Shown here piece by piece: positions 8,500 through 32,772 of a stretch of 64,000 nt of DNA (positions are counted from its first letter, which is position 1; each line of letters begins with the position of its first letter). Origin of the DNA: Bidens hawaiensis. Its lineage: Eukaryota > Streptophyta > Magnoliopsida > Asterales > Asteraceae. The notes below the pieces were generated by a model, which was not told the origin of the DNA, did no database searches, and saw nothing but the letters and a program-made list of their open reading frames with translations. The stretch covers positions 186,001 to 250,000 of the forward strand of contig JAIQDT010002061.1 of the NCBI GenBank assembly GCA_021521415.1, written 5' to 3'. The translations under genes were made by a program, and so were the position numbers.

Positions 8500-8765
8500 A
8501 CAAAATCTAACAACTAGGGTTTGTAGGCTGTTATTCTTCTCAGCTATTGCATAATTTGCACCGTTGAGACGAAAGAAAGGTATGGTTTGTAATGTACAAC
8601 TTAACTTACGTTGCTTGTCTTGGCAAGCGATTATAGGATTATTAGATTATACATATATATATGCTTTGATTCTTGTTTGTTTGTTTTTGCATTGCTTATC
8701 CTTATAATATAAATCAACAAGTTTGATTTTCTAGCTAACTTTTTTCTGTATGTATTTTTGTGGCC
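8500..8765 (+). pseudogene. 5' part of I29-domain gene copy A (promoter, 5' UTR exon, start of intron)
   Basis: This stretch aligns with 27760-27965, the 5' region of the neighbouring I29 gene copy B. Shared features are ATCTAACAACTAGGGTTTGTA, a GAGACGAAA exon end with donor AAG|GTATGG (GT at 8580-8581), and intron sequence up to TTTTTGTGGCC. The alignment is cut at TGGCC (8761-8765), where element A is inserted, and resumes at 27168. The expected intron A therefore runs from 8580 to the AG at 27261-27262 and holds the whole 18.4 kb element. Confidence 0.7.
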
Positions 8766-9746
8766 TGAAGAGGTAGGTCCCAGCAGAGCCCAGTTGGACC
8801 CGCAAGACTCACCTTGAAGAGGGACGTCTGCGCAGAAACCAACTGGATCCGCAGGACCAACCATGCTCAGAGACGTGACGTCCTTACGCGCAGTACGCAA
8901 GCTGTTCCCGCAGGAAATGCCTCCCAATGGTGAAGTAATCTGCCTATCCCCGCAGCTGCGGATACAAGCCATCAGGGAAGGCCACCCGCGCAGCAAGGCT
9001 ACACGCACAAGGCACTTAGCTCTCATTCACTCAGTGTCACCTGAAGGAATGAGCAAAGCCGGGAACAATCCCGCACAAAGGCGGGAGGGGGAATACTCCC
9101 GCCCAACTAAGCCAGTCCGTACGATACGGGAAGATCTTCTGTACTGTACCTGACGAGGTATGGGCAAAAGATCTGACTAAAGATACGACAGCTTATTGAC
9201 AACAGTATGGCGAGCAGCATGCTCTTGTACTGTATGTCACTATTAGCCGCTGCCTACTCACCAACTCCTGTCATACCACGTGCATAGCCGGCAGTTGGTG
9301 GAAAAGGAATAGTACACAGCAGGCCTAGTCACTGTCAGCCGCTGCCTACCCACCAACTACCAGCAGGGCACGTGCGTAGGCCACAGTTGGTGGAACAGGA
9401 ACACTATTCAGCCGGCCACACCTCCTTGGAAACCTACCTTCGGCTATAAATACCCCAAATGGTATGATCATCTCATCTTATCATATTATCATCATATTAT
9501 ACCTGATATCTGCTCTAGCAATCTCTTAATACACATTTATATTTAAAGAGCAATCTAGTCTGATTCTCACGCCGGAGGGTGGTCACAAGGAGGAACCCCC
9601 CCCCCCTTCTCAGTGACAAGCTCACGGTGTCTGTTTTGCAGGTTATCAGAAGAACCATCTTTACCGGGTCTAACCCCTCGTGGGAAACATCTATCTAACC
9701 CCCAGGTTACCTGTAATCTGCCCGGGGTCCGGTTAGTGTTTCTTCA
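8766..9746 (+). repeat. 5' LTR of element A
   Basis: The 981-bp LTR begins TGAAGAGGTAGG and ends GTTTCTTCA. A TATA box CTATAAATA is at 9444-9452, followed by a poly-C stretch near 9597-9606. Compared with the 3' LTR I noticed about five substitutions (for example near 8962, 8987, 9022, 9027 and 9679), so the insertion is young. Confidence 0.93.
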
Positions 9747-9812
9747 TTGGCGCCATCCGTGCATAAAAGCTAGAACTTCATTTCCTTTCAGTTTTTTCAA
9801 ACTTCTGGAAAG

Positions 9813-11363
9813 ATGGTTAAACAAACTCCGGTAACCACAACCCCAGCTACTGGGGGGAATACTGGCTACACAGTCTTTACAAACACTACCCCGGTTACCC
9901 AAGCCGGGGCAAGTGAAGTAAATTTTACGAACACTACCCCAGTTATCCAAGCTGGGGCAAGTGCAGTAAATAATCGCTCACTGGGATTCACCGATCCCCA
10001 GTTAGAGAAACGAACATGACTTCCCCGCCAAACACTCGATGAAGTTAAGGCATGGGCGGAGGCACGTCAGAGGGAATTCCAAGCTGAGTTGGACGAACGC
10101 TTGCGTTCCGTCCAACAGGCTGACGAATTCGAAGAATACTTGGACGATGACTCGGAGGAATCCGACACCGACGCGAACCCTCGCCATAGGGCAAAAGGGA
10201 AGCGTAAGGAAACGGACTCCCAACTGAGAAGGCGTTTTGGAGAAGCCTTCAAACCAAAAAACACAGGTGGAAGCCCACGTGACTTCTCCAAAACATTTAG
10301 ACCAACTGTTGCAAATGCGGGAACGTCCAAATTTGCAAGGGACATTGTGGAAGCAATTGCCCCAAAAAGTGCCAAACAAATGTCCAACATAGGCACATAT
10401 GATGGTATATCTGACCCAGATGATCATTTGAACAGATTCATAGCGGGGGCAACCGTCAGCAATTGGACGGAACCTACGTGGTGTTACATGTTCCAAATGA
10501 CGCTTGTTGGGCCAGCTAGAGCGTGGTTCGATCGTCTACCGGTCAACCACATCTACGACTGGGCAGACTTCCAACAGAAGTTTAGCCAACACTTCAGCCA
10601 ACAACCAAAGTATACCGAGGAGCAATGGACAATCCTCAAATGCATTCGAGAGGAAGATGAATCTTTGCCAGACTTCATCACTCGCTTCAACTCAAAGAAG
10701 CTAAGTCTGGGTAACATTAGCGAAGATCTTGTTCGCGCTGCTTTTATTCAGGGCGAGAACGACCCAGAGCTCATCCGCACCTTAACGGGTAAAGATGGCA
10801 TGCCATCCACATGGGATGCCATCATGACAGCAGCAAAACGCTTTGCGGAAACGGAGAAGCAACTGGGTAGAGATCTCCCACAGAGCACAAACCTCTACAC
10901 CCAGAAAACAAGAGAAGACAACGTCCTTACCGCCCGATTAAATAAAAAGCGGAAGCTAGGCATTTGGCAGTCAAGGGTAAACTTTGACACCTCATCCGGC
11001 TTGCAACATCGGTTAGGCGGAAGGGATAACGTACGGTCGAACCAGAACTCCAGATGGACGCCACTCACCAAAAGCGTCACCGAGATATTCGCCACTAAGG
11101 AGCTCCCATGGCCAAAGGCTCCAATAATCCGACATCGTCCCAATGCTGATCGGAGCAAATACTGTGACTTTCACAGGACAAAAGGCCACAACACTGAAGA
11201 ATGCACAGACGTAAAAGACATGGTCGAAGCATTTGTCAGAGATGGGACGCTCGCGCACCTCGTGGCGCAATTAACGCTGAGCAGGCTGATCCGTGTAGAA
11301 CCCCAGCTGGGGAAAACACGAATAAAATTTCCAGCTTCAATGTGGAGACTACATGCTGCGTAA
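9813..11363 (+). pseudogene. Gag of element A, interrupted by one in-frame stop
   Basis: The reading frame starts at ATG 9813, 66 nt after the LTR. It runs in a single frame to the TAA at 11361-11363, with one TGA at 10017-10019; a downstream ATG at 10089 opens a 424-codon part. The N-terminus has two repeats of a TNTTPV.QAGAS motif and then an acidic, charged stretch. A retrotransposon gag domain follows (about residues 215-330 of the full frame, containing GPARAWFDRLP and the ADFQQKFSQHF region). Near residue 451 there is a CDFHRTKGHNTEEC zinc-knuckle-like motif. Gag packages element RNA into virus-like particles. The tail after 11270 lacks the expected protease. The stop could be suppressed or could have inactivated the copy. 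Confidence 0.8.
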
Positions 11364-11571
11364 AGAACGAGATCCCGAACCAGGTGCATATCGGCTCGAT
11401 GGCACTCCCATCCCAACAACATGGAAGGGAGCTCAATTACACAGTTTGCATGTAGATCAATTCCAAATTTGTAAAGAAAAGGCACAGAGCCACTTCTAAT
11501 GGAAATGATTCTCCTTATAACACCGACGCTGATGATTTTACATTTATACTTTATGAACTATCAACACTGAT
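11364..11571 (+). other. Gag-pol junction remnant of element A
   Basis: About 200 bp after the gag stop with no recognisable protease or RT. Pol has been lost between here and the tandem repeats. The junction is not marked by any obvious repeat. Confidence 0.5.
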
Positions 11572-12355
11572 GCCGGTTTTCACCGCATACATAAGTGTGA
11601 AAGTCGTTGCATGGGGAAGGCGGCAAAACCCGCATAAACCCAAAAAACGACAAACCTTCACGCAGGTCAGTTGAAGGGGAAAAGTTCAGTCATCCCACTA
11701 AATGAAAGTGCCGGTCTATCCGCATGAATCATGATAGAGGAAACTGAACACTAACCTATTAACAACCGCGCGTCGAACGGTTAATTTATTCAACACGGAT
11801 ATGCCGGTTTTCACCGCATAATTACGTGGAAAGTCGTTGCGTGGGGAAGGCGGCAAAACCCGCATAAACCCAAAAAACGGCAAACCTTCACGCATGTCAG
11901 TCATAGATAAACTTTGGTCAACAAATGAAAGTGCCGGTCCTAACCGCACAAATCATGAGAGGAAACCGAACCTATTGACAACCGCGCGTCGAACGGTTCA
12001 AAACAGAGAATTTCTAACAAAAGGATGAGGAAAACCTACACGCAGGTCAGATATAGGTAAAGTTTAGCCATCCTACTAAGTGCAAGTGACGGTCCTACCC
12101 GCACAATCACGAAAGAGGAAGCAAAACTTCAACCTATTATCTACCACGTTCAAAGGTTAACTTATCCTAAACACTTAGAAATTTCAAAAAAGATGAGGAA
12201 AACCTCCACGCAGGTCAGATGTAGGTAAAGTTTAGCCATCCTACTAAGTGCAAGTGACGGTCCTACCCGCACAATCACGAAAGAGGAAGCAAAACTTCAA
12301 CCTATTATCTACCACGTTCAAAGGTTAACTTATTCTAAACACTTGGAAAATTGCA
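11572..12355 (+). repeat. Two tandem repeat families in element A
   Basis: Two units of about 225-231 bp start with GCCGGTTTTCACCGCATA at 11572 and 11803. They share GGGAAGGCGGCAAAACCCGC and CAACCGCGCGTCGAACGGTT. Two related units of about 165 bp follow, starting with ATGAGGAAAACCT at 12025 and 12193. All share CACGCAGGTCAG and AGTGCCGGTC/AGTGACGGTC cores, so they derive from one ancestral unit. Such non-coding tandem repeats near the 3' end are common in Tat-lineage elements. They lie just downstream of the antisense gene's stop. Confidence 0.85.
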
Positions 12356-12547
12356 AATTTAAACTAAAGTATGCAAGTCATATAACGTTTATAAAGCAAG
12401 GAATCCAGTGAAAGTAGCGGTCTTACCCGCACAAAGATTTATATTTCATAATATTCATTACAAGAATGGCCGGGTAACTACCCGCCTACAAGAAAATAAA
12501 TCTATACAAGCTAAATCTATCCTAGCAGTGGGAAGGGATCTTCAGGA

Positions 12548-13878
12548 TCAGGCTTCAGGGCCACTTCCACTTGGACCCGCACCATCAGTAGAACGTGGCG
12601 GTTCAAGGAAAGCTTTAAGGATAGCTAGCCCATCATCAGCAGCAGCAACTTGGTTCACCTTCTCCACCACCGGATGCGGGAAGGCGGCATACTGATTCAC
12701 TGCTTGGTCGTAAACAGCTTCAGTATCAACATTATACAAAGGGAAGTTGGAAGGCGGGATGCCTTTCTCAACGAACCCTAGACCAAGCAGGAAGCCGGCC
12801 TTTTCCCCATCCTCATGAGAAGCGTTGAGGGCTGCACTCATAGCATCGTCATAAGACGTCTCCGTGAAGACCCGATGCACAACCTACAAAAAGAGTACAA
12901 GTATCAAAACCTTTTCTATTTACAAAGAAAAGCGTGAAGACATGAAGCTAAACATACCTGAGACAACGCTTCTCGAAGAAGCCATTCCTTGGCAACCAGA
13001 GCTTCTTGGAGGGCAGCTTGAGCTTCGTTACGGGCGCGTTCGGCTTCACTTTTATTGAGGTTGGCAAGCAACACTTCTTTAGCCGCAGCCTCTTCGACGC
13101 CCTTTAGCTTTCGCTCAGTATGGTCAAGCACCCCCCTCTGGTCCAAGATCTCCTGGAGCTTTTTGGCGTCTTCCATCGCCAAGGCATCATGAGCCTGCTG
13201 GAGAGCCTCTAATTTGGCCTTAAGCTCTTCATTCTCTACGCGTAGAGGCTCAGCAACAGCTTCAGCCTTGGTGGCCCTCTCGGTTGCGTTCCTTGCAGTT
13301 TCATTAGCCAGCCGAAGCTGTTCATTAACAGCTTGGGCAGCCTTGGAACGGGCCTCGAGCCGGGCCTGAACTTCAACCTCGAGGGCCCTGAAGGCCTTCT
13401 CCTTTTCCGCAGCCACTGCGGTAAGCCTTTGGTTCTCCTCCCGGACAGCCCGCGCCTGAGCTACTTCTTTAATGCGAGCTGCTTTTAACTTGTCGTTTTC
13501 ACGACAAAGCAGCTCGACGCGCGGCTGCATCCGGGCCAGGAGAACTCGAAGCTCATTGGTTAGCCTACCCTCCTGGTAGCTAGCCATGGCTTCCCCCAAC
13601 GCACCACTGGGAGCAGCGTGACGAGCCCACTCCACGCACTCCACAGGTGTGCGAAGGGTTGTTCCTCTGCTGATGTTCCATCGTGGAACATACACTTCAT
13701 TGGAATCCGACACTGCAAAAAACATAAAGCAGTTAGGAAAAGATGATAAAAATATGAAAAGGGCCAAAAGAACCCTACGCACCTGTAGGGTCAATAACAG
13801 GCCGATAGCCGCCAAACCCATCACCTGAACCCAACGGAAATCCATCCAAGAGGTCAGGCAGATGGGAAGGAGGCAGAG
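12548..13878 (-). pseudogene. Antisense gene of element A, 3' half: end of exon 3, exon 4 (coiled coil), exon 5
   Basis: On the minus strand, exon 3 resumes at 13878 beyond nested element B and ends at 13783 (ACAG|GTGCGT). Exon 4 is 13712-12958 (acceptor TTTTGCAG, donor CTCAG|GTATGT) and exon 5 is 12883-12548 (acceptor TTTGTAG, TGA/TAG-type end at 12548). Junction phases agree with the reading frames on both sides. Exon 4 encodes about 250 residues dominated by an Ala/Glu/Lys/Arg-rich coiled coil with heptad spacing. Exon 5 encodes an acidic Ala-rich tail ending GPSGSGPEA. This matches the general plan of plant 'putative gypsy-type transposon' proteins (N-terminal conserved domain, low-complexity linker, C-terminal coiled coil). 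Function is unknown. Confidence 0.8.
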
Positions 13879-15889
13879 TGTGACAACTGCCCAAATCCGA
13901 CCCGACCCAGGTACCCGTTTTCGGATCCGATTTTAAGATTTAAAATTTGATTATAATCTTTATAAATTTATCATATATATATATATATATATTTATATTA
14001 CTAATAATAATAATAATTCCTTTCCGCCGTCCCGCCCCTTTTTCTCTCTTGTCGCCGTCCCGCCCCTCTGCTTAACCCTTAAGCCTTGAACCCCTTTTTC
14101 TCTTAACTCTTTGCTTGTTCTTTGGTTCTTCCCGCCTAAGGATGTCTGCGCAGCTCCACGCGCCAGACTCCTTACAAGGAAGCCTGCGTGAAGACCAGCT
14201 GTTCCTGCGATACGCGAGACGAACTCTTCCCGCGGCGCGCAAGGGATTGTAGTTCTTCCCGCGGCGCGCAAGGGATTGTATTTCTTCCCGCGGCGCGCAA
14301 AGGATTGTAGTTCTTCCCGCGGCGCGCTAAGGATTGTAGCTCTTCCCGCGGCGCGCAAAGGATTGTAGCTCTTCCCGCGGCGCGCAAAGGATTGTAGTTC
14401 TTCCCGCGGCGCGCTAAGGATTTTTGGTTCTTCCCGCGACGCGCTAAGGATTGTTATGTCTGCCTTCTCGCGCTAGACACTTAAGTCTTTTCTCCAGTTT
14501 AAGCCAGCCTGTATGCTTTTGAAATATCTTATCTTCTGTGCTATACCTGCCAAGGTATGGGCACAGTAGGCCAGATCTGACATCTGTCCGAAATGTCACT
14601 TTCGGCGCAGCTTGCTTACCAACCCTCTTGGTTGTCAGAAAAAGTAACTGGCATAATCTTTTAAAATCTTCTTTTCCATGTCTTGTACAGTACTTTGTCT
14701 GACCCCTCCCATGCTATGAACAGTAACCTGTCAGCCTTCCCCATCCCCTGCAGCTGCCACCATATCTTTTGCTTGTGATATCTTTTGCTTTTGATATCTT
14801 TTGCTTGATTTGTTAAGATCTTTTTCCCCAATTCAAGGGATGTGTTCCCTAGGGTTTTCCTATAAATAAAGCTAATTTCTTGGATAATTAACACTACACT
14901 CCAACACTTGAACACTCCCCAAAATCTCTCCCTTACTCTCTGCCGAAGATCCTCAGCAACGCCTCCACTCCCCTCTTTGCATTCCGTCTTCTCTTCTTTT
15001 CTGCTCAGAAATCTCGGTAAATATATATATTTTGTTTAAGTGACTTGCATATATTCAAGACATAAAAACCAATCGTTAAACCAATAACCTCTTATTTATA
15101 GGTTAACTTTCGCTTGTTTAAAAGTTGGTTATTACGATATCTTTCAACGCACCTTTTACAAGTGAGTAATCTCGTACCTAATCCCCTTTTATTTTTAACG
15201 TTTTGGGATGTTCATGTGTTCGTACAACTTGAGTCTTAAACTTGTTTATGAAATTATGTGCGCAAAACCCATGTGTTATGGACGTTTACTAGTGTTGTAT
15301 ATTTGTATGTGTGGATCATTAACCGCTTTGATCGGCCTATTCCGAAGTTTTCATGGATCCATTAGATGAACACGGGAGACCTATTGTTACGATTTTCTTG
15401 GTTTGTTTGCACATACACGAATGATTATTTGTTTTTGCTCGATTTGGAGCACGCTATGAACTATGAGCTATGATCTATTTAGGCTTGATCACAATCTGTT
15501 TACACACTATGTTGAACACCAGTTATACACATGTTGCGCGCAGTGCTTTGTTATTATCTATTTTTATCTATTTAACTTGATTTCTCACCGACACGCAAGT
15601 GTTGACGTTTTATTTTAATACATGTTCAGGTTTGCTGTAGCTGCTTTTGGAAACTCGAGGACACGTAGGATGTTTTCTTTTACTTTGGACCTAGTTTAAA
15701 ATATAACAAGACAAGTTTATGTATTTGAATATTATGAGTTATGATATGTGATTTATGTTACTTTATGGCGTGTTCTGCGCATGCGCGATGAAATGTATTT
15801 ATTAAATATTGACACCCAAATAGTGTCACGAGTAATGAAACAATTGGTAGCGCCCCGATGTATAATCCGCCATCGGTCGGGGTGTTACA
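13879..15889 (+). repeat. 5' LTR of element B
   Basis: The LTR begins TGTGACAACTGCCC and ends GGGGTGTTACA. It contains an AT dinucleotide run near 13973, the 29-bp minisatellite at 14224-14456 and a TATA box CTATAAATAAA at about 14860. The long minus-strand frames over the minisatellite are translated repeat, not genes. Confidence 0.95.
14224..14456 (+). repeat. 29-bp GC-rich minisatellite in 5' LTR of B (8 units)
   Basis: Eight units, each with TTCCCGCGGCGCGC followed by AAGGATTGTAG or a close variant. The last unit has CGCGACGCGC. Every intact unit holds a SacII-like CCGCGG and a GGCGCGC block, very GC-rich against an AT-rich background. Confidence 0.92.
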
Positions 15890-16139
15890 GATTGGTATCA
15901 GAGCTCCGTGACTTTAGGATTAGGTGGTTAGACGTAACGACCTAGAATACCTAAGAGTCCCTTCTCGCGCATGAGAAAAATCTCATGATCGCGCGCTAAT
16001 TGTTAATTACTCGATATTTATAAAATATGCTTGCGCATACGCAGCACATGATTTCATGTTTTATCCGCGATCTTTCGATTTTTATTGTTAAATTTCAATT
16101 CGTTTCTTTACTTACATATTCGTTTGTTGTTGGGACTTA

Positions 16140-16420
16140 ACATTGAAAATCCGAAAAGTCATGGTGATACATGAATAGTTGATTTTCAATCCCCATTAAC
16201 TTTATGTTCTAAAATTGAAGATTTGAAAAGTCATGGTGATACATGAATTGTCAACCTCCAATACTTATTTACTCGTATATTTTAAATTGAAGATTTGAAA
16301 AGTCATGGTGATACATGAATTGTCAACCTCCAATACTCATTTACTCGTATATTTTAAATTGAAGATTTGAAAAGTCATGGTGATACATGAATTGTCGATT
16401 TTCAATTCGAATTCATTACC
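16140..16420 (+). repeat. Tandem repeat in the leader of element B (4 units)
   Basis: Four units of about 70-77 bp share GAAAAGTCATGGTGATACAT (near 16153, 16227, 16298 and 16370) between the PBS and the gag start. The repeats may be part of the RNA packaging or dimerisation region; this is inference. Confidence 0.88.
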
Positions 16421-16564
16421 TGTATTAAGTTTGCATTTAAATTCATATTTTACTTCAAAATTTGATAGCATTTAACTCCGCGAAACAAGCTTTACAATGA
16501 TATACTTTGCGCTGAAACGATTTCCCATACCAAGATATTATCAAAAAACTAAAACTTTTATAGA

Positions 16565-19500
16565 ATGCCTCCGATATCAGCTCGCTGTCATCAGAGGAGA
16601 GAAGCCTCGCGCAGACGTATGCAGCGTCGTTCCCAGGAAATGGCCGCCGCAATAGCCCAAGCCTTAAATCAAAATAATACCAACCCCTCCGGATACAATA
16701 TTAAGTCCTTTAATGCGGGTAACCCTCCGAAATTCTCAGGGCTCGAAGGAGCCACCGTAATGCTCCAATGGCTCGAGAAAATTGAGAACACCTTCCTCCA
16801 TACCCATTGCCCTCCAGACCGACGAACCTTATACGCCTCAAGTGTCCTGGAATCAAGGGCGCTTACATGGTGGAACGGAGTAGCTCACGCGCGTGGCGCA
16901 GAGGCTACTTCTAGCATGCTCTGGGAGGAATTCAAGGATCTTTTAACTCGAGAATTCTGCCCTCCCAACGAAGTAAAGCGCCTTGAGGAGGAATTTTGGA
17001 ACTTGAAACAGTACAGTGGCGAAGCGCGCGAGTACGCTACGCGCTTTCACGAACTAAGTTTGCTTGTCCCGCACCTAGTTACCCCTTCCCGCCGCGCCAT
17101 CGAAAAGTTTCTTGGGGGTCTCCCCATGGAAATTCAAGATTCTGTATGGGCCAGGAACCCAGTAACCCTCTCTGACGCCATCGAGTTGGCCGCTGTGCTC
17201 AGCGACAACCATGACAGGGCAGGAACCCTGTTCCTGCGAGGAGCCGAGAAGACCAAACTCACCAAGACTGTCCCAGAACCAACAGAAACCAAGCCAGAAC
17301 CCTCAAACCGTAACAACCTCAAACGCAGGCGCAAACCCAAACATCAAGCCTACGCGCTTACCAACCCGCTCATTGTCCAGCAACTCGCCTACCAACCTCC
17401 AGTATACGCTCCTAACCCACTGTCAACCTACCCAACACCCCCTGTAGTCCATAACTATGCCTTAACCAATTCCGCGCTCCCTGCCCCGTCAACTAAGAAA
17501 CCTTACACAGGAAACCAACCCTTTTGCCCAACCTGTAAACTTCATCACCCAACTCAAACCCCGTGTCGACAATGCAACCAATGTGGCCGTATTGGTCACA
17601 CTGCTGAGTACTGTAGAGTCCTTCCCGCCAACCCAATCGCGCAAACACCACCAACCTACCCGCAAAACCCACAATCAACATACCATAATCCACGACCCAG
17701 GTCGTGCTATAACTGCGGTGACCCCAGTCATTTCCGGAACGCGTGCCCAAGACTGCAAGTACAAATTACGCAAGCTAATCCGGTTAACCAAATTTCAAAC
17801 CAAGTGGCGCGCGGACGAGCTTTTAATATAACCGCGCACCAAGCGCAAGCGAATAATGACGTGGTTAATGGTACATTTTTACTTAACGGACAATATGCAT
17901 CTATACTTTTTGATACTGGCGCCGATAGGAGTTTTATTTCTCGCGCATTTGAACAAAAACTTGCGCGACCGCGAATAAACTTAAACGAAAACTTTACAGT
18001 TGAAATGGCTAACGGTGAAACAATTATAATAAACTCCGTGATCAAAGATTGCACGCTTAACCTTAATGAACACGATTTTCTAATCAACCTCATTCCCATG
18101 CCTCTTGGAAGTTTTGATGTTATTATTGGTATGGACTGGCTCTCGCAAAATCGCGCCGAAGTAATCTGCGCCAAGAAATTGATTCGCATTCCTCGGGATA
18201 ATGGTCAAGATCTTCATATCTACGGCGAGAAACCATCTAACGGTCTTAAACTTATGTCATGCACTGAAGCCCGAAGACTTTTACGAAAGAAATGTGTCGC
18301 GTTCTTAGCTCATGTGGTCAAACCCGATGAAGGAAAGAAGAAACTTCATGAAATCCCCATCGTGCGTGACTTTCCTGAAGTCTTTCCCGAAGATCTTTCT
18401 GGTCTACCTCCCGCTCGGGAAGTTGAGTTTCGTGTTGATCTTGTTCCTGGTGCATCCCCCGTAGCCAAATCTCCTTATCGACTTGCACCCACTGAAATGC
18501 AAGAATTAGCAAGTCAACTTCAAGAGTTGACCGATAAAGGATTCATTCGCCCTAGCTCTTCGCCGTGGGGTGCTCCGGTTTTGTTCGTTAAAAAGAAAGA
18601 CGGTTCGTTTCGCATGTGTATCGATTACCGCGAGCTGAACAAGCTCACCATTAAGAACCGGTACCCCTTACCGCGTATTGACGACCTCTTTGACCAACTC
18701 CAAGGTGCCTCTTGTTTCTCCAAAATCGATCTCCGTTCTGGCTATCACCAGTTGCGTATCCGCGAAGAAGATATTCCCAAAACTGCCTTTCGAACCCGCT
18801 ACGGTCATTTTGAATTCTTGGTCATGCCCTTCGGTTTAACCAACGCACCCGCTGTCTTCATGGATCTAATGAACCGGGTGTGTAGGCCTTTCTTGGACCA
18901 ATTCGTGATCGTGTTTATCGATGACGTTCTGATATATTCCAAAACCAAGGCCGAGCATGAACAACATCTTCTGTTGGTGTTGCAAAAGCTTCGAACCGAA
19001 CAACTCTATGCCAAACTCTTCAAGTGTGAGTTTTGGTCTGACGAAGTACAGTTTCTTGGTCATGTTGTAAGCAAGATGGGTATTCATGTCGACCCATCCA
19101 AAATTGAAGCAATCAAGCACTGGATTGCACCGACCACTCCTATCGAAATCCGTTCCTTTTTGGGCTTAGCTGGTTACTACCGGCGATTCATTTCGAACTT
19201 CTCAAAAATCGCCTTGCCTTTAACAGCATTAACGCACAAAGGCAAACCGTATATTTGGGGCTCGAAGCAAGAAGAAGCCTTTCAAACGCTCAAACGAAAG
19301 TTGTGCGAAGCTCCTGTTCTAACGTTACCAGAGGGTACTGACGACCTTGTCGTTTATTGTGATGCCTCCAACCAAGGTCTCGGTTGTGTACTTATGCAAC
19401 GAGGCAAGGTTATCGCTTACGCGTCAAGGCAACTCAAAATTCATGAAAAGAATTATACGACTCACGACCTCGAACTTGGAGCAGTTGTATTTGCCTTAAA

Positions 19501-21202
19501 AATCTGGAGACACTACCTCTATGGTACTAAGTGCATCATTTACACCGACCATAAAAGCCTTCAGCACATTTTTGATCAAAAGGAACTTAACATGAGACAA
19601 CGCCGATGGAGCGAACTCATCAGCGATTACGAGTGTGAGATCCGATATCACCCTGGAAAGGCTAATGTGGTAGCCGATGCGCTCAGCCGCAAACCCAGTC
19701 AACTCAACTGTATTTTGCCGCGCACGCAGCTTCACTTCGCGCCGATCCTAAGCAATCTTGAATCGCGCATTCGCGACGCGCAGCGCGCATCGATCAGCCA
19801 AGGCAACCTACGCGCCGAGTTAGCGTGTGGTGCGGAAGCACATCTAGTCCCTAACCTGAATGGAACTCTCTGTTATCTCAATCGCATCTGGATTCCCAAT
19901 GATGAGATTCTGCGCACTGACATACTGAGTGAAGCGCACAAAACTCGGTATTCCATTCATCCTGGCGCTGACAAAATGTACAAAGATTTGCGCCTTACTT
20001 ATTGGTGGCCCGGTATGAAAAAGGATATTGCTGTGTTTGTAGCTAAATGCCTAACTTGTTCTAAGGTAAAAGCTGAACATCAACGCCCATCTGGTTTGCT
20101 CGAACAACCAGAAATTCCTACGTGGAAATGGGAAAGTATAGCAATGGACTTTATCACCAAGTTACCCTTGACCGCAAGCAAACATGATAGCATTTGGGTA
20201 ATAGTGGATCGATTGACCAAGTCTGCCCACTTTCTACCCATTCGTGAAACCTACCGTGTTGAACAACACGCGCATCTTTATGTCAAAGAAATTGTCTGCC
20301 GTCATGGCACTCCCTTGAGCATAATATCCGATCGCGATGGCCGTTTTATATCTCACTTTTGGAAATCTCTCCAATCTGCGTTAGGAACTCGTTTGGACAT
20401 GAGTACTGCATATCATCCTCAGACTGACGGACAGTCTGAGCGAACCATCCAAACCCTTGAGGATATGCTTCGATCTTGTGTTCTTGATTTTGGAGGTAAT
20501 TGGGATTCACACCTACCTCTGATCGAGTTCTCTTATAATAACAGCTATCATTCCAGCATCGGTATGGCCCCATTTGAAGCACTTTACGGTCGAGAGTGCC
20601 GCTCACCGATTTGTTGGAACGAAGTGGGTGAAGTTCAAATCACAGGACCCGAACTAGTTCAAGAGACAACCGATAAAATCGCCAAGGTCCGTGATCATCT
20701 GCTGACTGCCAGAAGCCGACAGAAGAGTTACGCAGATCGCAGGCGGAAGCCTCTCGAATTTCTAGTTGGTGATCTTGTTCTCCTCAAAGTGTCGCCCTGG
20801 AAGGGTGTTGTCCGCTTTGGGAAGAAAGGTAAGCTTGCACCTCGTTATGTTGGTCCGTTCAAGATTCGTGCGAGAGTGGGAAAGGTTGCCTACAAACTGG
20901 ACCTGCCGCTCGCGCTCAGCAATGTGCATCCAACGTTCCATGTATCCAACCTCAAGAAATGTTTAGCTGACGAGAACCTCCACATACCACTTGATGAAGT
21001 TCAAGTTGATGAGTCTATGCATTTCGTTGAGAAGCCTGTTGAGATTATGGATCGCGAGGTGAAGCAAACCAAGCGCAGTCGCATCCCTATTGTCAAAGTT
21101 CGCTGGGAGTCCAAGCGCGGAGCCGAGTTCACTTGGGAAAGGGAAGATCAATTGAAGATCAAATACCCGCACCTTTTCTCTGCGCATCCTACTTCGAGAT
21201 AA
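16565..21202 (+). CDS. Gag-pol polyprotein of element B (1,545 aa)
   Basis: One uninterrupted frame encodes the proteins for a Ty3/gypsy replication cycle. In order: gag domain (about residues 60-200, with W-rich ALTWWNGV); two CCHC zinc knuckles, the second [14 protein letters not shown] at 381; aspartic protease with DTGA at 450; reverse transcriptase (about 630-810) with FIDD at 784-787; RNase H (catalytic Asp near 933, TDHKS near 995); HHCC plus integrase core with D1195, D1256 and E1292 in D,D(35)E spacing; and a C-terminal chromodomain-like segment (about 1490-1540, EIMDREVKQ to FTWERE). All key residues are present. ATG 16565 lies 675 nt after the LTR and is the first in the frame. The closest relative here is the polyprotein of element D. 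Confidence 0.93.
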
Positions 21203-21236
21203 ATTTCGGGACGAAATTTCTTAAAGTAGGGAAGAC

Positions 21237-23218
21237 TGTGACAACTGCCCAAATCCGACCCGACCCAGGTACCCGTTTTCGGATCCGATTTTAAGATTTA
21301 AAATTTGATTATAATCTTTATAAATTTATCATATATATATATATATATATTTATATTACTAATAATAATAATAATTCCTTTCCGCCGTCCCGCCCCTTTT
21401 TCTCTCTTGTCGCCGTCCCGCCCCTCTGCTTAACCCTTAAGCCTTGAACCCCTTTTTCTCTTAACTCTATGCTTGTTCTTTGGTTCTTCCCGCCTAAGGA
21501 TGTCTGCGCAGCTCCACGCGCCAGACTCCTTACAAGGAAGCCTGCGTGAAGACCAGCTGTTCCTGCGATACGCGAGACGAACTCTTCCCGCGGCGCGCAA
21601 AGGATTGTAGTTCTTCCCGCGGCGCGCAAAGGATTGTAGTTCTTCCCGCGGCGCGCTAAGGATTGTAGCTCTTCCCGCGGCGCGCAAAGGATTGTAGCTC
21701 TTCCCGCGGCGCGCAAAGGATTGTAGTTCTTCCCGCGGCGCGCTAAGGATTTTTGGTTCTTCCCGCGACGCGCTAAGGATTGTTCTGTCTGCCTTCTCGC
21801 GCTAGACACTTAAGTCTTTTCTCCAGTTTAAGCCAGCCTGTATGCTTTTGAAATATCTTATCTTCTGTGCTATACCTGCCAAGGTATGGGCACAGTAGGC
21901 CAGATCTGACATCTGTCCGAAATGTCACTTTCGGCGCAGCTTGCTTACCAACCCTCTTGGTTGTCAGAAAAAGTAACTGGCATAATCTTTTAAAATCTTC
22001 TTTTCCATGTCTTGTACAGTACTTTGTCTGACCCCTCCCATGCTTTGAACAGTAACCTGTCAGCCTTCCCCATCCCCTGCAGCTGCCACCATATCTTTTG
22101 CTTGTGATATCTTTTGCTTTTGATATCTTTTGCTTGATTTGTTAAGATCTTTTTCCCCAATTCAAGGGATGTGTTCCCTAGGGTTTTCCTATAAATAAAG
22201 CTAATTTCTTGGATAATTAACACTACACTCCAACACTTGAACACTCCCCAAAATCTCTCCCTTACTCTCTGCCGAAGATCCTCAGCAACGCCTCCACTCC
22301 CCTCTTTGCATTCCGTCTTCTCTTCTTTTCTGCCCAGAAATCTCGGTAAATATATATATTTTGTTTAAGTGACTTGCATATATTCAAGACATAAAAACCA
22401 ATCGTTAAACCAATAACCTCTTATTTATAGGTTAACTTTCGCTTGTTTAAAAGTTGGTTCTTACGATATCTTTCAACGCACCTTTTACAAGTGAGTAATC
22501 TCGTACCTAATCCCCTTTTATTTTTAACGTTTTGGGATGTTCATGTGTTCGTACAACTTGAGTCTTAAACTTGTTTATGAAATTATGTGCGCAAAACCCA
22601 TGTGTTATGGACGTTTACTAGTGTTGTATATTTGTATGTGTGGATCATTAACCGCTTTGATCGGCCTATTCCGAAGTTTTCATGGATCCATTAGATGAAC
22701 ACGGGAGACCTATTGTTACGATTTTCTTGGTTTGTTTGCACATACACGAATGATTATTTGTTTTTGCTCGATTTGGAGCACGCTATGAACTATGAGCTAT
22801 GATCTATTTAGGCTTGATCACAATCTGTTTACACACTATGTTGAACACCAGTTATACACATGTTGCGCGCAGTGCTTTGTTATTATCTATTTATATCTAT
22901 TTAACTTGATTTCTCACCGACACGCAAGTGTTGACGTTTTATTTTAATACATGTTCAGGTTTGCTGTAGCTGCTTTTGGAAACTCGAGGACACGTAGGAT
23001 GTTTTCTTTTACTTTGGACCTAGTTTAAAATATAACAAGACAAGTTTATGTATTTGAATATTATGAGTTATGATATGTGATTTATGTTACTTTATGGCGT
23101 GTTCTGCGCATGCGCGATGAAATGTATTTATTAAATATTGACACCCAAATAGTGTCACGAGTAATGAAACAATTGGTAGCGCCCCGATGTATAATCCGCC
23201 ATCGGTCGGGGTGTTACA
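21237..23218 (+). repeat. 3' LTR of element B
   Basis: The 1,982-bp LTR has the same ends as the 5' LTR, seven minisatellite units (about 21583-21784) instead of eight, and a TATA box at 22190. It is preceded by a short purine-rich tract AAAGTAGGGAAGAC. Confidence 0.95.
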
Positions 23219-24928
23219 CAGAGGTTGGCGAGAAGCCCCATGCATACCTGAAGGATCGGCCGTCGTTGCCGATGACGGAGGCATGGTAGAAGCCGCCGCG
23301 GTCGCCGCCGCGGAATCCGCAGCAAAAGTAGCCGCCGGCTCAGTGAAAGATGCGGTAAAAATGGCACTCACAGCCGGCGGTGACGTCATCACAGCTGGAA
23401 CAGTCGGCTCAACGGAGTGAGCAACTGAACCAGTGGAAGCAGGCGCAGGCGCAGCCGCCTGGGTCGTCGCCTCAGGTAGGCTGACCAAGCCTACCGTCAT
23501 GGGCGGAGGGGTACTCCTCTGCGCTCCACCCTGGAATGCGTCAACATCCACACCTGCACAAAGAAGACAAAGTGTTAATGATATTAAGCTATGAAGTTAA
23601 AGATAAAGGAAGTTTGTACTTACGGGTTTTCTTGAGCCTAAATGTACGGACAGGCGGGGATGAACCCGATGGAGCCGGCCTCTTCACGCCGCTCACCATT
23701 GTCATCCTGGGCTCTCCGGTGACAGTTGTCACAGCCTCCGGAACGGTGGTCTTATCACCACCGGGGTTCCCCGCCACCTCCTCGCTCTCGGCCTCTGAGT
23801 CAGACCGAGGCACTGGATCGGCAGTGGAGGCCACCTTCTCCTTCCCCTTCCCGCCGGCAGCCTTCTTCTTCCGCACCAACGGATGACCATCTGCGGATTC
23901 CTCATCAGAACATACGATTAGAGGAATTCCAGCAGAGGTTTCAACATTGAGGGGTCGAGGGTTGAATAGCGCCTTACCTGGCCGCCTGGCGCTAAGGATC
24001 TCGTGGCCTAGTGGGTAGACCTCCACGAACCGATCCGCCGTTTGTTCTAGGATGGGCAACTCGTTCTCGTCTAGAGCGCGAGTACCCATCCGAGCGGGAC
24101 CGTCAGCCTCCCGCGGGTACATGAGCGACTGCAAGTCGTTCCCCTCTGAAATAAACAGGAAAGAAGTTAGAAGAGATTCTAAATTAACAAAAAGAAACAG
24201 AGCATACCGTAAGGAACAGAGTTCGAACCGTATTCAAGGACGATTGGGATCTTTTGCGCATCCGCATCCTTCCACACCCGGCTCATCCCCAGCATCACCA
24301 TCCCGGACTCCGCAAACCGGTAAACCGGAGATTGGACTAGGGATATCTTCGCAAACCATTCCGCCTCCTGGTAGTTGGAGGCGTGAAGGCTGGGAAGTGC
24401 TTGCCCATTCTTGAATTTCATGGCAAGGGGGATGGCGCGAGCGGAGATGTAGAAGAACTCCCGCTTCCACGAGCGAAGACTGCGCTTGGTTGCGCAAATC
24501 TTCAAACCCTTAATCCGGGTTATCAGAGTATACCACCCCTGGATGCACCTCCAGGAGTAGAAGGTCATCAGGCGGTCGACATAGGGCTCAATGCCCAGAA
24601 TCCGGCACACCCACTCGAAGTGGCGAATCTTCGCGATCGCCATCGGGTGCACCTCGGTCAGGTGCAAACCGTGCCTCTCCAGGACACGGTACACAAACTT
24701 TGTCAATGGGAACCTAAGATTCCCATAGACAAAGAATGCAGCATATACCCCGATCTTGCCTCTGGGGGCATCATACACCGTCTGGTGGGGTTCAGGAAAC
24801 TCAGGCTCGAGAGACTCGAGCATGAACTTCCTGACGATGTACTGATACAGATCGACAGGCAGAGCACACTGGCACTCGCCAGCAGTACTCTTGTCATCGG
24901 CTGTAGATTCGAGATCATGAGAAGACAT
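23219..24928 (-). pseudogene. Antisense gene of element A, 5' half: exons 1, 2 and start of exon 3
   Basis: The minus-strand ATG is at 24928 (MSSHDLES). Exon 1 (24928-24208) encodes the conserved plant 'gypsy-type putative transposase' region: a hydrophobic block with GVYAAFFVYGNLRFPL, then AKIRHFEWVCRILGIEP, then a W-rich stretch with SWRCIQGWYTL. The donor is TACG|GTATGC. Exon 2 (24145-23624, acceptor TTTCAG) carries RKKKAAGGKGKEKV and an acidic linker and ends ACCC|GTAAGT. Exon 3 begins at 23553 (GTGCAG acceptor) with an Ala/Pro/Thr-rich linker. At 23219 it meets the TSD and 3' LTR of element B. If B and one TSD copy are ignored, all five exons sum to 2,760 nt, an exact multiple of three (919 codons plus stop). 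The upstream TTG at 24958 is in frame, but ATG 24928 fits better. Confidence 0.82.
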
Positions 24929-25054: not shown

Positions 25055-25062
25055 TTTATATA
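25055..25062 (-). promoter_or_regulatory. TATA box for the antisense gene of element A
   Basis: Minus-strand TATATAAA, followed by AGGGGGAGAGGG, lies about 127 nt upstream of the ATG at 24928. The intervening leader is CT-rich like a plant 5' UTR. This suggests the antisense gene has its own promoter inside the retrotransposon and does not depend on the LTR. Confidence 0.55.
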
Positions 25063-25408
25063 CTAATCGCAATTAATGCAATGAATTTAATGCGGAAGAG
25101 AGAGAAATCGAAGGTGCAATGAAACTATGACACGTGGCAAAAAGCAAGCTGGCAACAGCTGTTGAAAGGACGCGTACCATTAATTTCGCGGCCACGCGCC
25201 CGAAAAATCGCGCCCACGCGCTTGAAAAAGCGTCTGGAATGACCATGTACTGTCACGTCACCATAACTTCCTGCACGTCCTGACACAGTCAGAAGAAACC
25301 GTCGCACGACGTTTCAGAGGTTTGGACTGTTCTTATCCTTTCACCAACCTTTCGAATTTCAAAAATTCAAAAAGATTCAAAAGTAAGCGAGCGGGAAAAT
25401 ACCCCTTA

Positions 25409-25796
25409 CCTTGGCAACCAAGTAACCATAAGACGGGTGCGGGTACAGTGTTAAGGCAAAACCCTTCACATACTTAGCACCTGTAGGGAATTGAAGTCAA
25501 GAATACCTTGGCAACCAAGTAACCATAAGACGGGTGCGGGTACAGTGTAAAGGCAAAACCCTTCACATACCTAGCACCCGCAGGGAATTGAAGCCAAGAA
25601 TACCTCGGCAACCAAGTAACTATAAGACGGGTGCGGGTACAGTGTTAAGGCAAAACCCTTCACATACCTAGCACCCGCAGGGAATTGACGCCAGGAATAC
25701 CTTGGAAGTAAAGTAACCGTAAGACGAGCGCGGGTACAGTGTTAAGGCAAAACCCTTCACATACCTAGCGCTCCGCAGGGAATTGAAACCAAGAAG
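25409..25796 (+). repeat. 97-bp tandem repeat in element A (4 units)
   Basis: Units start at 25409, 25506, 25603 and 25700, exactly 97 bp apart. Each contains CCATAAGACGGGTGCGGGTA, AAGGCAAAACCCTTCACATA and GCAGGGAATTGA. The fourth is the most diverged. The array lies upstream of the antisense promoter as read on the minus strand, between that gene and the 3' LTR. Confidence 0.93.
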
Positions 25797-26181: not shown

Positions 26182-27162
26182 TGAAGAGGTAGGTCCCAGC
26201 AGAGCCCAGTTGGACCCGCAAGACTCACCTTGAAGAGGGACGTCTGCGCAGAAACCAACTGGATCCGCAGGACCAACCATGCTCAGAGACGTGACGTCCT
26301 TACGCGCAGTACGCAAGCTGTTCCCGCAGGAAATGCCTCCCAATGGTGAAGTAATCTGCCTGTCCCCGCAGCTGCGGATACAAGCCATCAGGGAAGGCCA
26401 CCCGCACAGCAAGGCTACACGCACAAGGCACTTAGTTCTCAATCACTCAGTGTCACCTGAAGGAATGAGCAAAGCCGGGAACAATCCCGCACAAAGGCGG
26501 GAGGGGGAATACTCCCGCCCAACTAAGCCAGTCCGTACGATACGGGAAGATCTTCTGTACTGTACCTGACGAGGTATGGGCAAAAGATCTGACTAAAGAT
26601 ACGACAGCTTATTGACAACAGTATGGCGAGCAGCATGCTCTTGTACTGTATGTCACTATTAGCCGCTGCCTACTCACCAACTCCTGTCATACCACGTGCA
26701 TAGCCGGCAGTTGGTGGAAAAGGAATAGTACACAGCAGGCCTAGTCACTGTCAGCCGCTGCCTACCCACCAACTACCAGCAGGGCACGTGCGTAGGCCAC
26801 AGTTGGTGGAACAGGAACACTATTCAGCCGGCCACACCTCCTTGGAAACCTACCTTCGGCTATAAATACCCCAAATGGTATGATCATCTCATCTTATCAT
26901 ATTATCATCATATTATACCTGATATCTGCTCTAGCAATCTCTTAATACACATTTATATTTAAAGAGCAATCTAGTCTGATTCTCACGCCGGAGGGTGGTC
27001 ACAAGGAGGAACCCCCCCCCCCTTCTCAGTGACAAGCTCACGGTGTCTGTTTTGCAGGTTATCAGAAGAACCATCTTTACCGGGTCTAACCCCTAGTGGG
27101 AAACATCTATCTAACCCCCAGGTTACCTGTAATCTGCCCGGGGTCCGGTTAGTGTTTCTTCA
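26182..27162 (+). repeat. 3' LTR of element A
   Basis: 981 bp, the same length and ends as the 5' LTR, with a TATA box at 26860-26868 and followed by TSD TGGCC (27163-27167). Its R/U5 side points into the I29 gene copy A and could drive read-through into it. Confidence 0.93.
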
Positions 27163-27276
27163 TGGCCTAAATCAGAATTTTCTTTTCTTTTCGAGATATA
27201 AATAAATTTCCTCCTCAAAGGGTTTCCAGATTTCATTCAAAACCCATTGTTTTTAAATCCAGGTGTGATTGTTACA

Positions 27277-27525
27277 ATGTCGGCATCCGACGCTGATGAC
27301 ATGTTGGTTTTTGAGGACTGGATGAAAGAATACAACAAAACGTATACTGGTGATGACAAGGCAAGGAGATTCAAATTGTTTCAACAAACTCTCCGTGAAA
27401 TAGAGAATCATAATTCAGATCCAAGAGGTACTCATTTTATCGGTTTGAACAAATTTGCTGACATGAGTTCTGATCGAGGAGTTCCAAAGAGTCCTCGTTG
27501 GAATCACTGGTCAGTCCCTAGATGA
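27277..27525 (+). pseudogene. I29 (cathepsin-propeptide) domain gene, copy A, frameshifted
   Basis: ATG 27277 follows a splice acceptor AATCCAG at 27262. It opens an 82-codon frame with a clear inhibitor I29 fold signature: FEDWMKEYNKTY, then RRFKLFQQTL, then IENHN and IGLNKFADMSS (ERFNIN-type spacing). I29 is the prodomain that blocks papain-like C1 proteases. Compared with copy B, four extra bases (ATCG/TCGA) after GAGTTCTG near 27468 shift the frame, so the conserved EEF and acidic tail are replaced by an unrelated short tail ending at 27525. No C1 peptidase domain follows. Its 5' UTR intron carries element A. It could still make a truncated inhibitor-like peptide, but pseudogene is more likely. 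Confidence 0.7.
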
Positions 27526-28069
27526 CGAAAGCAAGGTATGGTTTTTATTATGTACATATACATATGCTTTTGTTTCAGATTTCTTTTTTTTTCGTGTAAT
27601 TGGATATTATTATCTTATCTTTCGTTAATCGCTGTATGTTTCAATTTTTCGTTTGCAATCCTAATTTTCATATCGCTGGCCAGTCGATTCCTGTTAATCA
27701 TTTCACTTCTAATCGATTTCTTTACTGCAACCCTAGTATGGACCCGTACGTATACATATATGATACATAATCTAACGATTAGGGTTTGTACGCTTTCATT
27801 CTTGTTTGAGACGAAATAAATTAAGGTATGATTTTTTACGCACAAGTCTTAACTTAGGTTGGTTGTCTTGGCCGGGTTTGTTTCGTATTGCTAAATCCTT
27901 ATAAATCAACAAGTTCTATAATTTACCTGCTAACTATTGTTATCTGTATGTATATTTGTGGCCTAGCTAAATCATGGTTAATTGTCATCATATAAATAAA
28001 TTTCCTCCAGGTTTCTAAACCCATGATTTTGTTATTATTATATAAATACAGTGGCGATTGATTGCCACA
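27526..28069 (+). promoter_or_regulatory. Upstream region, 5' UTR exon and intron of I29 gene copy B
   Basis: This contains a second GACGAAA...AAG|GTATGG-like donor right after copy A (27530s), then sequence matching 8441-8765. The predicted copy B 5' UTR intron runs from the donor at 27826 (TTAAG|GTATGA) to the AG at 28050-28051. It includes TTTGTGGCCTAGCTAAATC, which is the uninterrupted version of the element A insertion site. Confidence 0.6.
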
Positions 28070-28692
28070 ATGCCGTATGATGACATGTTGGTTTTTGAGG
28101 ACTGGATGAAAAAACACAACAAGACGTATACTGGTCATGATGAGAAGGCAAGGAGATTCAAAACGTTTCAAGAAGCTATGCGTAGAGTAGAGAATCATAA
28201 TTCAAATCTAAGAATTAGTCATTGGATCGGTTTGAACAAATTTTCTGACATGAGTTCTGAGGAGTTCAATAGAGACGTCATTGGATCCACTGGTGAGTCG
28301 GATGAAGACACTGATGAGGAGGAGTTGATTTCCCAAGTTCGGAAGCTACGTACAGTTCCTTACAAACTCTGTAATTTACTACTACCCATTAATTATTATC
28401 ATTCAAGCTAGATGATAAGTATCTTTCTTTGATTCAATAATGACTATGCAAATAATAAATAAATGTTAGGTGATGAAAAAGATACCAAAAAGGATGTTAC
28501 AGCCAAACGCCAAGCAAGAGGTTATCAGTTTTTACCCATCATTATCTTTCAAGCTAAATGATATCTTTGATGACAAGATTTAGTAATGCTATCTTTCTTT
28601 GGAAATAATAAATGTTAGGTGATGGAAAAGAAGATACCAAAGAGGATGTTACAGTGCTTGTGGAACCGGAACCCAAAAAACCGAAAAATTAA
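28070..28692 (+). CDS. Stand-alone I29 (cathepsin-propeptide) domain protein, copy B
   Basis: Three-exon model: 28070-28370 (donor CTCT|GTAATT), 28470-28520 (acceptor TTAG, donor AGAG|GTTATC) and 28619-28692 (acceptor TTAG, stop TAA). All junctions are phase 1 and the frame stays open, giving about 141 residues. Residues 5-75 form the I29 domain (FEDWMKKHNKTY, RRFKTFQEAM, VENHN, IGLNKFSDMSSEEF). An acidic Asp/Glu stretch follows (about 80-88), and the short exons 2 and 3 encode related KDTKKDVT/KEDTKEDVT repeats. The I29 domain inhibits C1A cysteine proteases in cis as a propeptide or in trans when free-standing. No protease domain follows to 29290. The exon 2/3 repeat suggests internal exon duplication. 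The trans-inhibitor role is inference. Confidence 0.65.
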
Positions 28693-29289: not shown

Positions 29290-29551
29290 CAACCAAACAT
29301 AATGGAATCATCATTCAAACATTCCAGTTTCCAAGTCAAACACAAAAAATAACCAGAAAAAGGACCCTACAACTCTAAAAGCCCTTAACATCCTAACCAA
29401 CCGCTCATTAGTAAAGCCAGGATATGCACACCTATTGAGATTTGGCCGGCAGCGGCTGCACCATTCTTTTCCACCCCATTTCTCCACCACCCCCTTAATT
29501 TCCAGATTCTCTTGAGTCTTACCCGGTATAGCAATCCACATCCAAACAAAC

Positions 29552-29561
29552 ACTATATAAA
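29552..29561 (+). promoter_or_regulatory. TATA box of PIP-like gene, copy 2
   Basis: The same CTATATAAAC element as at 264-273, about 40 nt upstream of the ATG at 29600. Confidence 0.6.
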
Positions 29562-29599
29562 CACACACTTCCAACCCTCTTATTGGTAAGCTATCATCA

Positions 29600-29842
29600 A
29601 TGAGTAGCCGGTTCCTCTTGATGTTCTTGATGACGGTGATGCTGGTGGCGTTTGCTGAGTCAATAAACAGCTCCTTACCTAAGCCGGTTCCTACGTTGGA
29701 GCCCACGAAATTATCAGCATCTTCTCAACCATCAAAAACTGATGATCATGCTCATGATGAGTACTACAACTCTGAGAACAAAGTTGAAACTTATTATAAG
29801 CTAGCTTCAACTGGTCCAAGCCCAAAGGGTATAGGACACTAG
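29600..29842 (+). CDS. PIP/PIP-like secreted signalling peptide precursor, copy 2
   Basis: The 80-residue product is identical to that encoded at 312-554: signal peptide, Ser/Pro/His-rich spacer, and C-terminal TGPSPKGIGH next to the stop. The TATA box, leader and 3' flank are also copied. The only nearby difference I saw is one T missing about 160 nt upstream. Both copies look functional, so the duplication would double dosage of this peptide if it is real and not an assembly artefact. The gene lies about 0.9 kb downstream of the I29-domain gene at 28070-28692, with no visible functional link. Confidence 0.75.
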   Translation: MSSRFLLMFLMTVMLVAFAESINSSLPKPVPTLEPTKLSASSQPSKTDDHAHDEYYNSENKVETYYKLASTGPSPKGIGH

Positions 29843-31827: not shown

Positions 31828-32181
31828 CAGGCTCGGTTTCGAGAAAGAAAAAAAATATTGGGCCGAAGGTGAAAATTGTTTTTGGTCTTAAGTAAATTTT
31901 TTTTTTGTTGGGTTTAAACAATTATATGGGTTTACTTTGTTATAATTGGATTGTGTGAAAAACTTTTGTATTAGGATTAAACATGCTTCAAATGAGAGTG
32001 AAACCCATAACCTTTGGGTTATGAGTCATACCCCTTTACCACTAGACCAAACTAATGGTTATGTAATTGAGTACAAACACTACGTATACATATTGTTTTA
32101 ATAAAAATACATATAATTTAAAAAAAATCTGGCCTAGCGGGATGGCGGGCCTGTGACGGCCACACCTTATGGCCGGCCCTG
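31828..32181 (+). mobile_element. hAT-like MITE, copy 2
   Basis: The orthologous copy of the element at 3417-3771, with the same GTTTGTGT TSD at 31820-31827 and 32182-32189. It was carried along by the segmental duplication and is not an independent insertion. Confidence 0.8.
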
Positions 32182-32219
32182 GTTTGTGTAGGCATAAATA
32201 ACCCATAGATACATCATAC

Positions 32220-32384
32220 ATGTCAAGACCCACCAAAGTCTTAACAGTGTATGATGTTCACATAGAAGGATTAGTAAACCTATATGACTTGTTATGGGCA
32301 GAGGCTCAGCAATGCGTAGTATTCGCAAACAAGTATGGTAGGCCCAAAATGACTTCTCATGATATGATTAAGTTCAAGAAATAA
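32220..32384 (+). CDS. Unrecognised 54-codon ORF, copy 2
   Basis: The duplicate of 3810-3974 with the same length and frame. It differs by one codon near the start (AAA to ACA). No function can be assigned. Confidence 0.25.
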   Translation: MSRPTKVLTVYDVHIEGLVNLYDLLWAEAQQCVVFANKYGRPKMTSHDMIKFKK

Positions 32385-32772
32385 AGGTAGTACTCGGTAA
32401 TATGTCAGCAGTCATCAACGGATTATCAATGCTTCTTAGTTTTGTTGCTAATCTTAGATTATTGAAGATCATATCGACTACCTACCTCACTTTTCTCTTT
32501 ACATTCCCGTCATCCTTTTCCACCCCGTCACACTTGTCTTCAACCACTAAAACTGCCATCTACACGACCATCATCTATTATCATAACCGCTTACCACCGT
32601 CATTGTTGCCTTTTACCACCACTATCCGCCCTCATAGTCGCCGAGCACCATCATCTAGTAACACATCTGCCTTTCACCACAAAGGCTGCCATACACCACC
32701 AAAGGAAATTTCCATTACAACCATCCCACCATAACAGGTTCCTACAACCATCCACCATAACACTCGCATACC

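Follow-up and report, generated by a model that had tools for sequence, protein, structure and literature searches.

What is a gene with introns doing on the antisense strand of a retrotransposon without pol, and how could its introns have lasted there? The question is raised by a stretch of 64,000 nucleotides (nt) of the Bidens hawaiensis genome (contig JAIQDT010002061.1, positions 186,001 to 250,000; hereafter the window), in which a long terminal repeat (LTR) retrotransposon, here called element A, carries five coding segments on its minus strand. We consider it probable that element A represents a pol-less family of Retand type whose TRP28 accessory gene is organized as one five-exon antisense gene of 919 residues and serves the cycle of the element.

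A predicted five-exon gene antisense to element A

Between the five segments lie four GT..AG introns, all of them where the initial annotation had placed them and each flanked by open exon frames (Table 1). Exon lengths of 721, 522, 426, 755 and 336 nt add up to 2,760 nt, that is 919 residues plus a stop, and the splice phases are 1, 1, 1 and 0, which reproduces the total and the phases first proposed; the sum was made from the lengths only, and element B, a second element that lies nested inside exon 3, was not cut out of the sequence. Because element B splits exon 3, the window copy cannot make the whole protein. Exon 1 matches the Pfam family PF04195 (Transposase_28, or TRP28) at E = 5.2e-7 and 30.2 bits against a curated cut-off of 26.2, so that the domain suspected at the outset was recovered. 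No match at gathering scores was obtained from Rfam.

The name Transposase_28 is the one point that speaks for a transposase, with the gene being what is left of a DNA transposon in the element. We regard this origin as highly improbable, as Pfam gave no match to a catalytic domain and inverted repeats of at least 100 bp were absent between 5000 and 32000, shorter ones lying outside that search.

Conservation among copies in the Bidens hawaiensis genome

A DNA search with exon 1 gave 40 scored places, the window included, among 5,043 first-look candidates, and all were 96–100% identical. For 29 of the 39 other places the left half was examined, and for 20 of these the right half too. The GT..AG borders were retained in 92 of 96 cases (intron 1, 28/29; intron 2, 26/28; intron 3, 19/19; intron 4, 19/20). 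Every copy has the ATG start (29/29) and the TGA stop (20/20), exon 3 is contiguous and free of element B in 28 of 29, and a TATA sequence stands at the equivalent position in 25 of 26 other copies. From this last count and from the left-half selection counts given below we omitted L038 (large deletion), L042 (truncation) and L046 (near-duplicate), and from the right-half selection counts L067 (truncation). Nine of the 20 copies seen in both halves are free of any stop, frameshift or splice change in all exons and introns; random breakage of the exons in other copies, which would have told against the initial annotation, is thus not what is seen. Apparent stops in the right piece of exon 3 turned out to be frame artefacts from partial fragments, and the left-half loci were used to read this piece again.

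Precise intron loss was found in none of the copies examined, and in one copy an imprecise deletion removes sequence from both exon 2 and intron 2. Since splice sites, frame and TATA box recur in the copies, and a sister family described below has all four introns, the arrangement is more than chance.

L040 and L046 lie 6.9 kb apart on one contig and have in common a one-base deletion in exon 1 and are nearly alike in their changes, as a local duplication would leave them.

Selection on the antisense gene

Insertions and deletions (indels) were compared first between exons and introns. Distinct indels are multiples of three in 16 of 25 cases in exons and 6 of 26 in introns (Fisher p = 0.005), a count that omits one deletion spanning both exon and intron. 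Pooled ratios of nonsynonymous to synonymous polymorphism (pN/pS), from 27 sequences for exons 1–3 and 20 for exons 4–5 with the window included, were 0.14 for exon 1, 0.38 for exon 2, 0.59 for the left part of exon 3, 0.32 for exon 4 and 0.23 for exon 5. In each exon the true frame has the lowest value of the three frames on its own strand; the wobble-aligned shadow frame on the opposite strand comes near or equals it (exon 4, 0.32 versus 0.32; exon 5, 0.23 versus 0.24), because the two share third positions.

Variants shared between copies were separated from singletons, and the ratio of nonsynonymous to synonymous change (omega) of the shared ones was gauged against 1,000 shuffles that keep sequence context. 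In exon 1 omega was ∼0.16, a value reached by none of the 1,000 shuffles, and it was 0.40 in exon 4 (22/1,000) and 0.25 in exon 5 (2/1,000). Singleton variants gave 0.70–0.95, weakly below neutral, and all ten stop variants are singletons. When exons 1, 4 and 5 are taken together, shared variants comprise 19 nonsynonymous and 57 synonymous changes versus 124 and 70 among singletons (p = 7e-9), stops being entered as nonsynonymous in the singleton tally. Such a pattern is expected of a protein that is needed during multiplication of the element and is nearly free to decay once a copy has landed.

The same data bear on whether the antisense transcript has its effect as RNA, for instance as double-stranded RNA acting against or for the element, and not as protein. 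Antisense RNA regulation has been raised for such elements in the available text of PMC7264820, and RNA and protein roles could both hold; codon-level constraint in several exons and stops confined to singletons are unexplained by RNA alone, and we consider a pure RNA function very unlikely. Selection might also act on the host, the gene being domesticated. We found no point in support of this extremely improbable reading: at least 40 near-identical places were scored, and the constraint lies in variants inherited by several copies, singletons being so close to neutral.

Relatives with the same introns

A sister family in the same genome (L084–L086) is 71–77% identical in DNA over long pieces. 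Introns 1–3 were kept in all three copies viewed and intron 4 in both of two, at the same positions and in the same phases, so that GT..AG introns at conserved places are found in relatives. Between sister and window, the ratio of nonsynonymous to synonymous substitution rates (dN/dS) is 0.06 in exon 1, 0.24–0.27 in exon 2, 0.33–0.37 in the left and 0.20–0.31 in the right part of exon 3, 0.06–0.11 in exon 4 and 0.09–0.10 in exon 5, and the lowest of these values are rough because synonymous sites are near saturation in exons 1 and 4. Together with the strongly synonymous shared variants of exons 1, 4 and 5, this range of 0.06–0.37 agrees with the expectation of dN/dS well below 1.

The remaining 11 of the 20 copies are incompletely covered or damaged by a stop, a frameshift, a splice-site change or a large deletion, and many are decaying, as would be the case for chance open reading frames (ORFs) or decaying relics joined by accident through GT..AG sites. 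Such an explanation is barely credible, as exon indels preserve the frame, splice sites are retained and shared variants are biased to synonymous ones; retention of all four introns at 71–77% DNA identity already contradicts it.

Two sister elements differ from element A in their remaining parts. In the L085/L089 element (L089, 3346-3760) the LTR and a primer-site-like stretch are fused straight to RNase H, and the order in L089 is RNase H, integrase and antisense gene; of reverse transcriptase (RT) only the end was matched, and gag was not matched there. The L084/L088 element, together with L090, has two LTRs, GCGGC on both flanks, repeats and the antisense gene, and neither gag nor pol was matched in it. 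A gene-only family of this form was considered and rejected, as its junction was found full-length in one of 40 scored matches, namely itself; the form looks like a single deletion and not a family.

A distant TRP28 family of the same genome, with exon 1 only 25–34% identical to that of the window, has intron 1 at the same place and in phase 1. Donor and acceptor are intact in eight of nine displayed copies, the ninth having lost the acceptor AG. Here the antisense gene stands behind gag, RT (RVT_1, E = 5.5e-26), RNase H and an integrase-like region that is known by similarity, the scanned piece giving no Pfam match, and exon 2 continues into the VYVP motif, the coiled coil and an exon-5-like end. 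A second distant group has a donor-like GTAT at the position of intron 1, and its acceptor was not identified. Annotated Helianthus (sunflower) proteins, which are predicted models, join the TRP28 domain with this C-terminal half; among 121 proteins, 18 of the 36 with a TRP28-like start are spliced at the intron-1 junction by a strict pattern, and by eye the junction is crossed in eight of ten models read fully. The sole close relative in protein database searches was P0001, an uncharacterised B. hawaiensis protein whose sequence is present at 100% identity in the assembly of the window; it was returned both by a first search limited to the best 7,996 word-sharing candidates and by a repeat with residues 1–300.

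The introns and the TATA promoter of its own look cellular, and intron 1 is common to divergent families. A host gene may therefore have been captured antisense, introns included, by an ancestral Retand element, an account that concerns the origin of the gene and not its present function. We hold such a capture to be possible though rather unlikely: similarity to TRP28 outside transposable elements is reported absent in the available part of PMC11963269, and our own weak protein search gave P0001 alone, which is one of many near-alike genomic places.

Element A keeps gag and lacks pol

The LTRs of element A differ at 5 of 981 positions and its target site duplication (TSD), TGGCC, is perfect on both sides; hence the element is young. 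Pol was not found in it by tblastn with Retand-type query pieces for RT, RNase H and integrase, the gag piece of the same search giving a match. The sole non-gag match (E = 0.005, antisense, within exon 1) was taken as chance and not as pol. In all 13 other pairs of gag and exon 1 on one contig the two are opposite in orientation, and their distance is 3.3–3.8 kb in 12 and 1.6 kb in one (a pairing at 10.7 kb on contig C14049 was left out, a nearer exon 1 lying in between). This gap is occupied by the remainder of the antisense gene together with the repeats, and thus there is no room for pol. Moreover, in nine of nine gag copies gag continues directly into the region equivalent to window 11290-12548. 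The family of element A in B. hawaiensis holds two genes, gag and the antisense gene.

In the window copy gag is broken at 10017-10019 by an in-frame stop, which is codon 69 from the ATG at 9813, and the gag frame stays open past the usual gag end of the other copies. Gag is open in seven of nine other copies and constrained, with pN/pS of 0.29 from ten sequences. The proposal that element A is a vehicle for the antisense gene more than for pol holds in that this gene was kept and pol has gone; it needs amending in that gag was kept as well. As pol is missing at one and the same junction in the tested copies, we infer that the constraint on shared variants acted mostly after pol was lost. Presumably pol is borrowed in trans from another element. 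No pol-bearing helper sharing this LTR was found; among the LTRs seen, the most similar are 71–77% identical over longer pieces.

The stretch TTGGCGCCATCCGTGC abutting the 5' LTR, which may serve as the primer-binding site, has a nearly identical counterpart directly behind the LTR of the sister element L089. By its sequence the family would be a young, gag-only one of Retand type, element A itself being without an RT by which to place it. It has the tandem arrays that are frequent, though not universal, in the 3' internal region of Retand elements.

Table 1. Positions in the window of element A, its antisense gene and the nested element
Feature	Positions	Strand	Remarks
5' LTR of element A	8766..9746	+	TSD TGGCC at 8761-8765
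Primer-binding-site-like stretch	9747..9762	+	TTGGCGCCATCCGTGC; abuts 5' LTR of element A
Gag region of element A	9813..11363	+	Retrotrans_gag domain; CCHC-like motif by eye
Repeats 3' of gag	11561..12357	+	168 bp x 2, plus a diverged ~220 bp pair; pol not found there
Exon 5	12548..12883	-	TGA at end
Intron 4	12884..12957	-	Phase 0, GT..AG
Exon 4	12958..13712	-	VYVPRWN motif, then heptad-rich coiled-coil-like stretch (simple heptad count)
Intron 3	13713..13782	-	Phase 1, GT..AG
Exon 3, downstream part	13783..13873	-	Beyond the nested insertion
Element B, nested	13879..23218	+	1,549-codon open frame similar to RT, RNase H, integrase; TSD CAGAG at 13874-13878 and 23219-23223
Exon 3, upstream part	23219..23553	-	Low-complexity linker
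Intron 2	23554..23623	-	Phase 1, GT..AG
Exon 2	23624..24145	-	Linker, basic patches by eye
Intron 1	24146..24207	-	Phase 1, GT..AG
Exon 1	24208..24928	-	ATG start; PF04195 (Transposase_28/TRP28)
TATA-box sequence	25055..25062	-	TATATAAA; ~130 nt upstream of ATG
Tandem array, 97 bp x 4	25407..25795	+	Between antisense gene and 3' LTR
3' LTR of element A	26182..27162	+	TSD TGGCC at 27163-27167

Several further observations were made in the window. On the minus strand, 59731-61012 match part of the long open frame of element B at 71% and are probably the remains of another element like it. Just outside element A, 27202-27525 and 28046-28411 are 84% similar and each contain an ORF; presumably these ORFs resemble cysteine-protease propeptide or inhibitor domains of I29 type. 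The first 5050 bases of the window recur behind element A at 99.4–99.9% identity (1-2284 as 29290-31572, and 3158-5050 as 31569-33460), with ∼870 bases exclusive to the first copy, by recent duplication or as repeats of another element. A perfect palindrome of 70 bases lies at 40529-40599.

Proposed role of the antisense protein

The splice sites, the reading frame and the TATA box are conserved and the gene is constrained at the codon level, and on this comparative basis the antisense gene most likely encodes a spliced accessory protein for the element's own cycle. Transcription would start antisense from the gene's own promoter near the 3' LTR, and the host would splice the transcript. The predicted protein would have an N-terminal TRP28 domain, a basic linker, a coiled coil and a conserved C-terminus. 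It may be imported into the nucleus, as the basic patches of the linker, seen by eye, and a nuclear relative in Grande suggest, and there, paired via the coiled coil, it might bind DNA of the element or chromatin. Such binding could favour expression of the element or completion of its own cycle, the missing pol being provided in trans by another element. Because the sense genomic RNA holds only the complement of the splice sites, the introns would be copied intact in each round; hence the gene may survive only by being antisense, an idea with which the absence of precise intron loss among the examined copies agrees.

Several points weigh against this account, besides the damaged copies mentioned above. 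Copies were chosen by their likeness to exon 1 of the window. Constraint on shared variants is weak in exon 2 (omega 0.63, reached by 58 of 1,000 shuffles) and without clear sign in the linker of exon 3 (∼0.95, 416 of 1,000). The sister copies have stops, one each, in exon 1 (L086), exon 3 (L085), exon 4 (L084 and L086) and exon 5 (L089). Introns 2 and 3 are apparently absent in the distant family, and therefore only intron 1 is demonstrably old. The annotated gene model P0001 reads on through intron 1 without splicing it and afterwards departs from the frame. A partial fold model of the antisense protein, with a mean predicted local distance difference test score (pLDDT) of 50, suggested no clear structural match. 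Finally, we infer splicing by comparing sequences, and the nuclear role and DNA binding, taken from papers on other elements, would apply here by analogy.

More broadly, we lean towards a joint view of the Retand lineage in which the TRP28 ORFs and the ORFs with Smc-, Mis12- or checkpoint-like coiled coils are exons of one ancient spliced antisense gene, the introns persisting as splice signals that are invisible in the sense genome; pol could be borrowed, and this protein (or gag) would have to be encoded by the moving copy itself. The scattered and puzzling antisense ORFs of a large plant lineage would then become one gene with defined exons, promoter and protein, and would offer a natural example of an intron-bearing gene persisting inside a retroelement. 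A family that has no pol yet is constrained in gag and in the antisense gene indicates which functions a non-autonomous element may be unable to borrow.

Comparison with known systems

Antisense TRP28 ORFs have been described in all but two Retand clusters in the available part of Vicient 2025 (PMC11963269) and in 23% of Retand elements in that of PMC6317226. The former predicts that the TRP28 domain binds DNA, and as in the elements it covers, the PF04195 coding region of element A is antisense and stands before the 3' LTR. Its Retand elements have tandem repeats in about half of cases, were recently active and include some non-autonomous clusters, similar to what we see here. The accessible portion lists separate ORFs (TRP28, Smc-like, Mis12-like and others), whereas here one five-exon gene unites the TRP28 and coiled-coil exons; it describes no defective cluster without all of pol, whereas element A lacks pol entirely. 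The antisense genes of maize Grande (gene23), RIRE2 and Silene Retand likewise lie near the 3' LTR, and for gene23 an own promoter and a nuclear protein are given in the part of PMC7264820 at hand.

The word intron is absent from the main text of PMC11963269 and from the available text of PMC7264820, which calls for study of antisense and spliced transcripts. A literature search by titles and the starts of abstracts gave no report of introns in this gene, older key papers (Gomez-Orte 2013, Steinbauerova 2011, Kejnovsky 2006) and the full texts of PMC6696364 and PMC12786077 being outside its scope.

TR-GAG elements, by the definition in the available text of PMC9784723, have two LTRs and gag without pol, and so does element A. 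In TR-GAG gag is the single ORF between the LTRs, whereas the element A family adds a second gene, antisense, intron-bearing and under selection.

A further parallel is HBZ of HTLV, whose mRNA is spliced. It too is an antisense gene of a retroelement, and its product is nuclear (PMC11963269); element class and host are different, and we do not claim homology. Antisense TRP28 genes are already known in Retand, and ours is not presented as a first report; what may be new, as read from the sequence, is the intron-bearing form with five exons.

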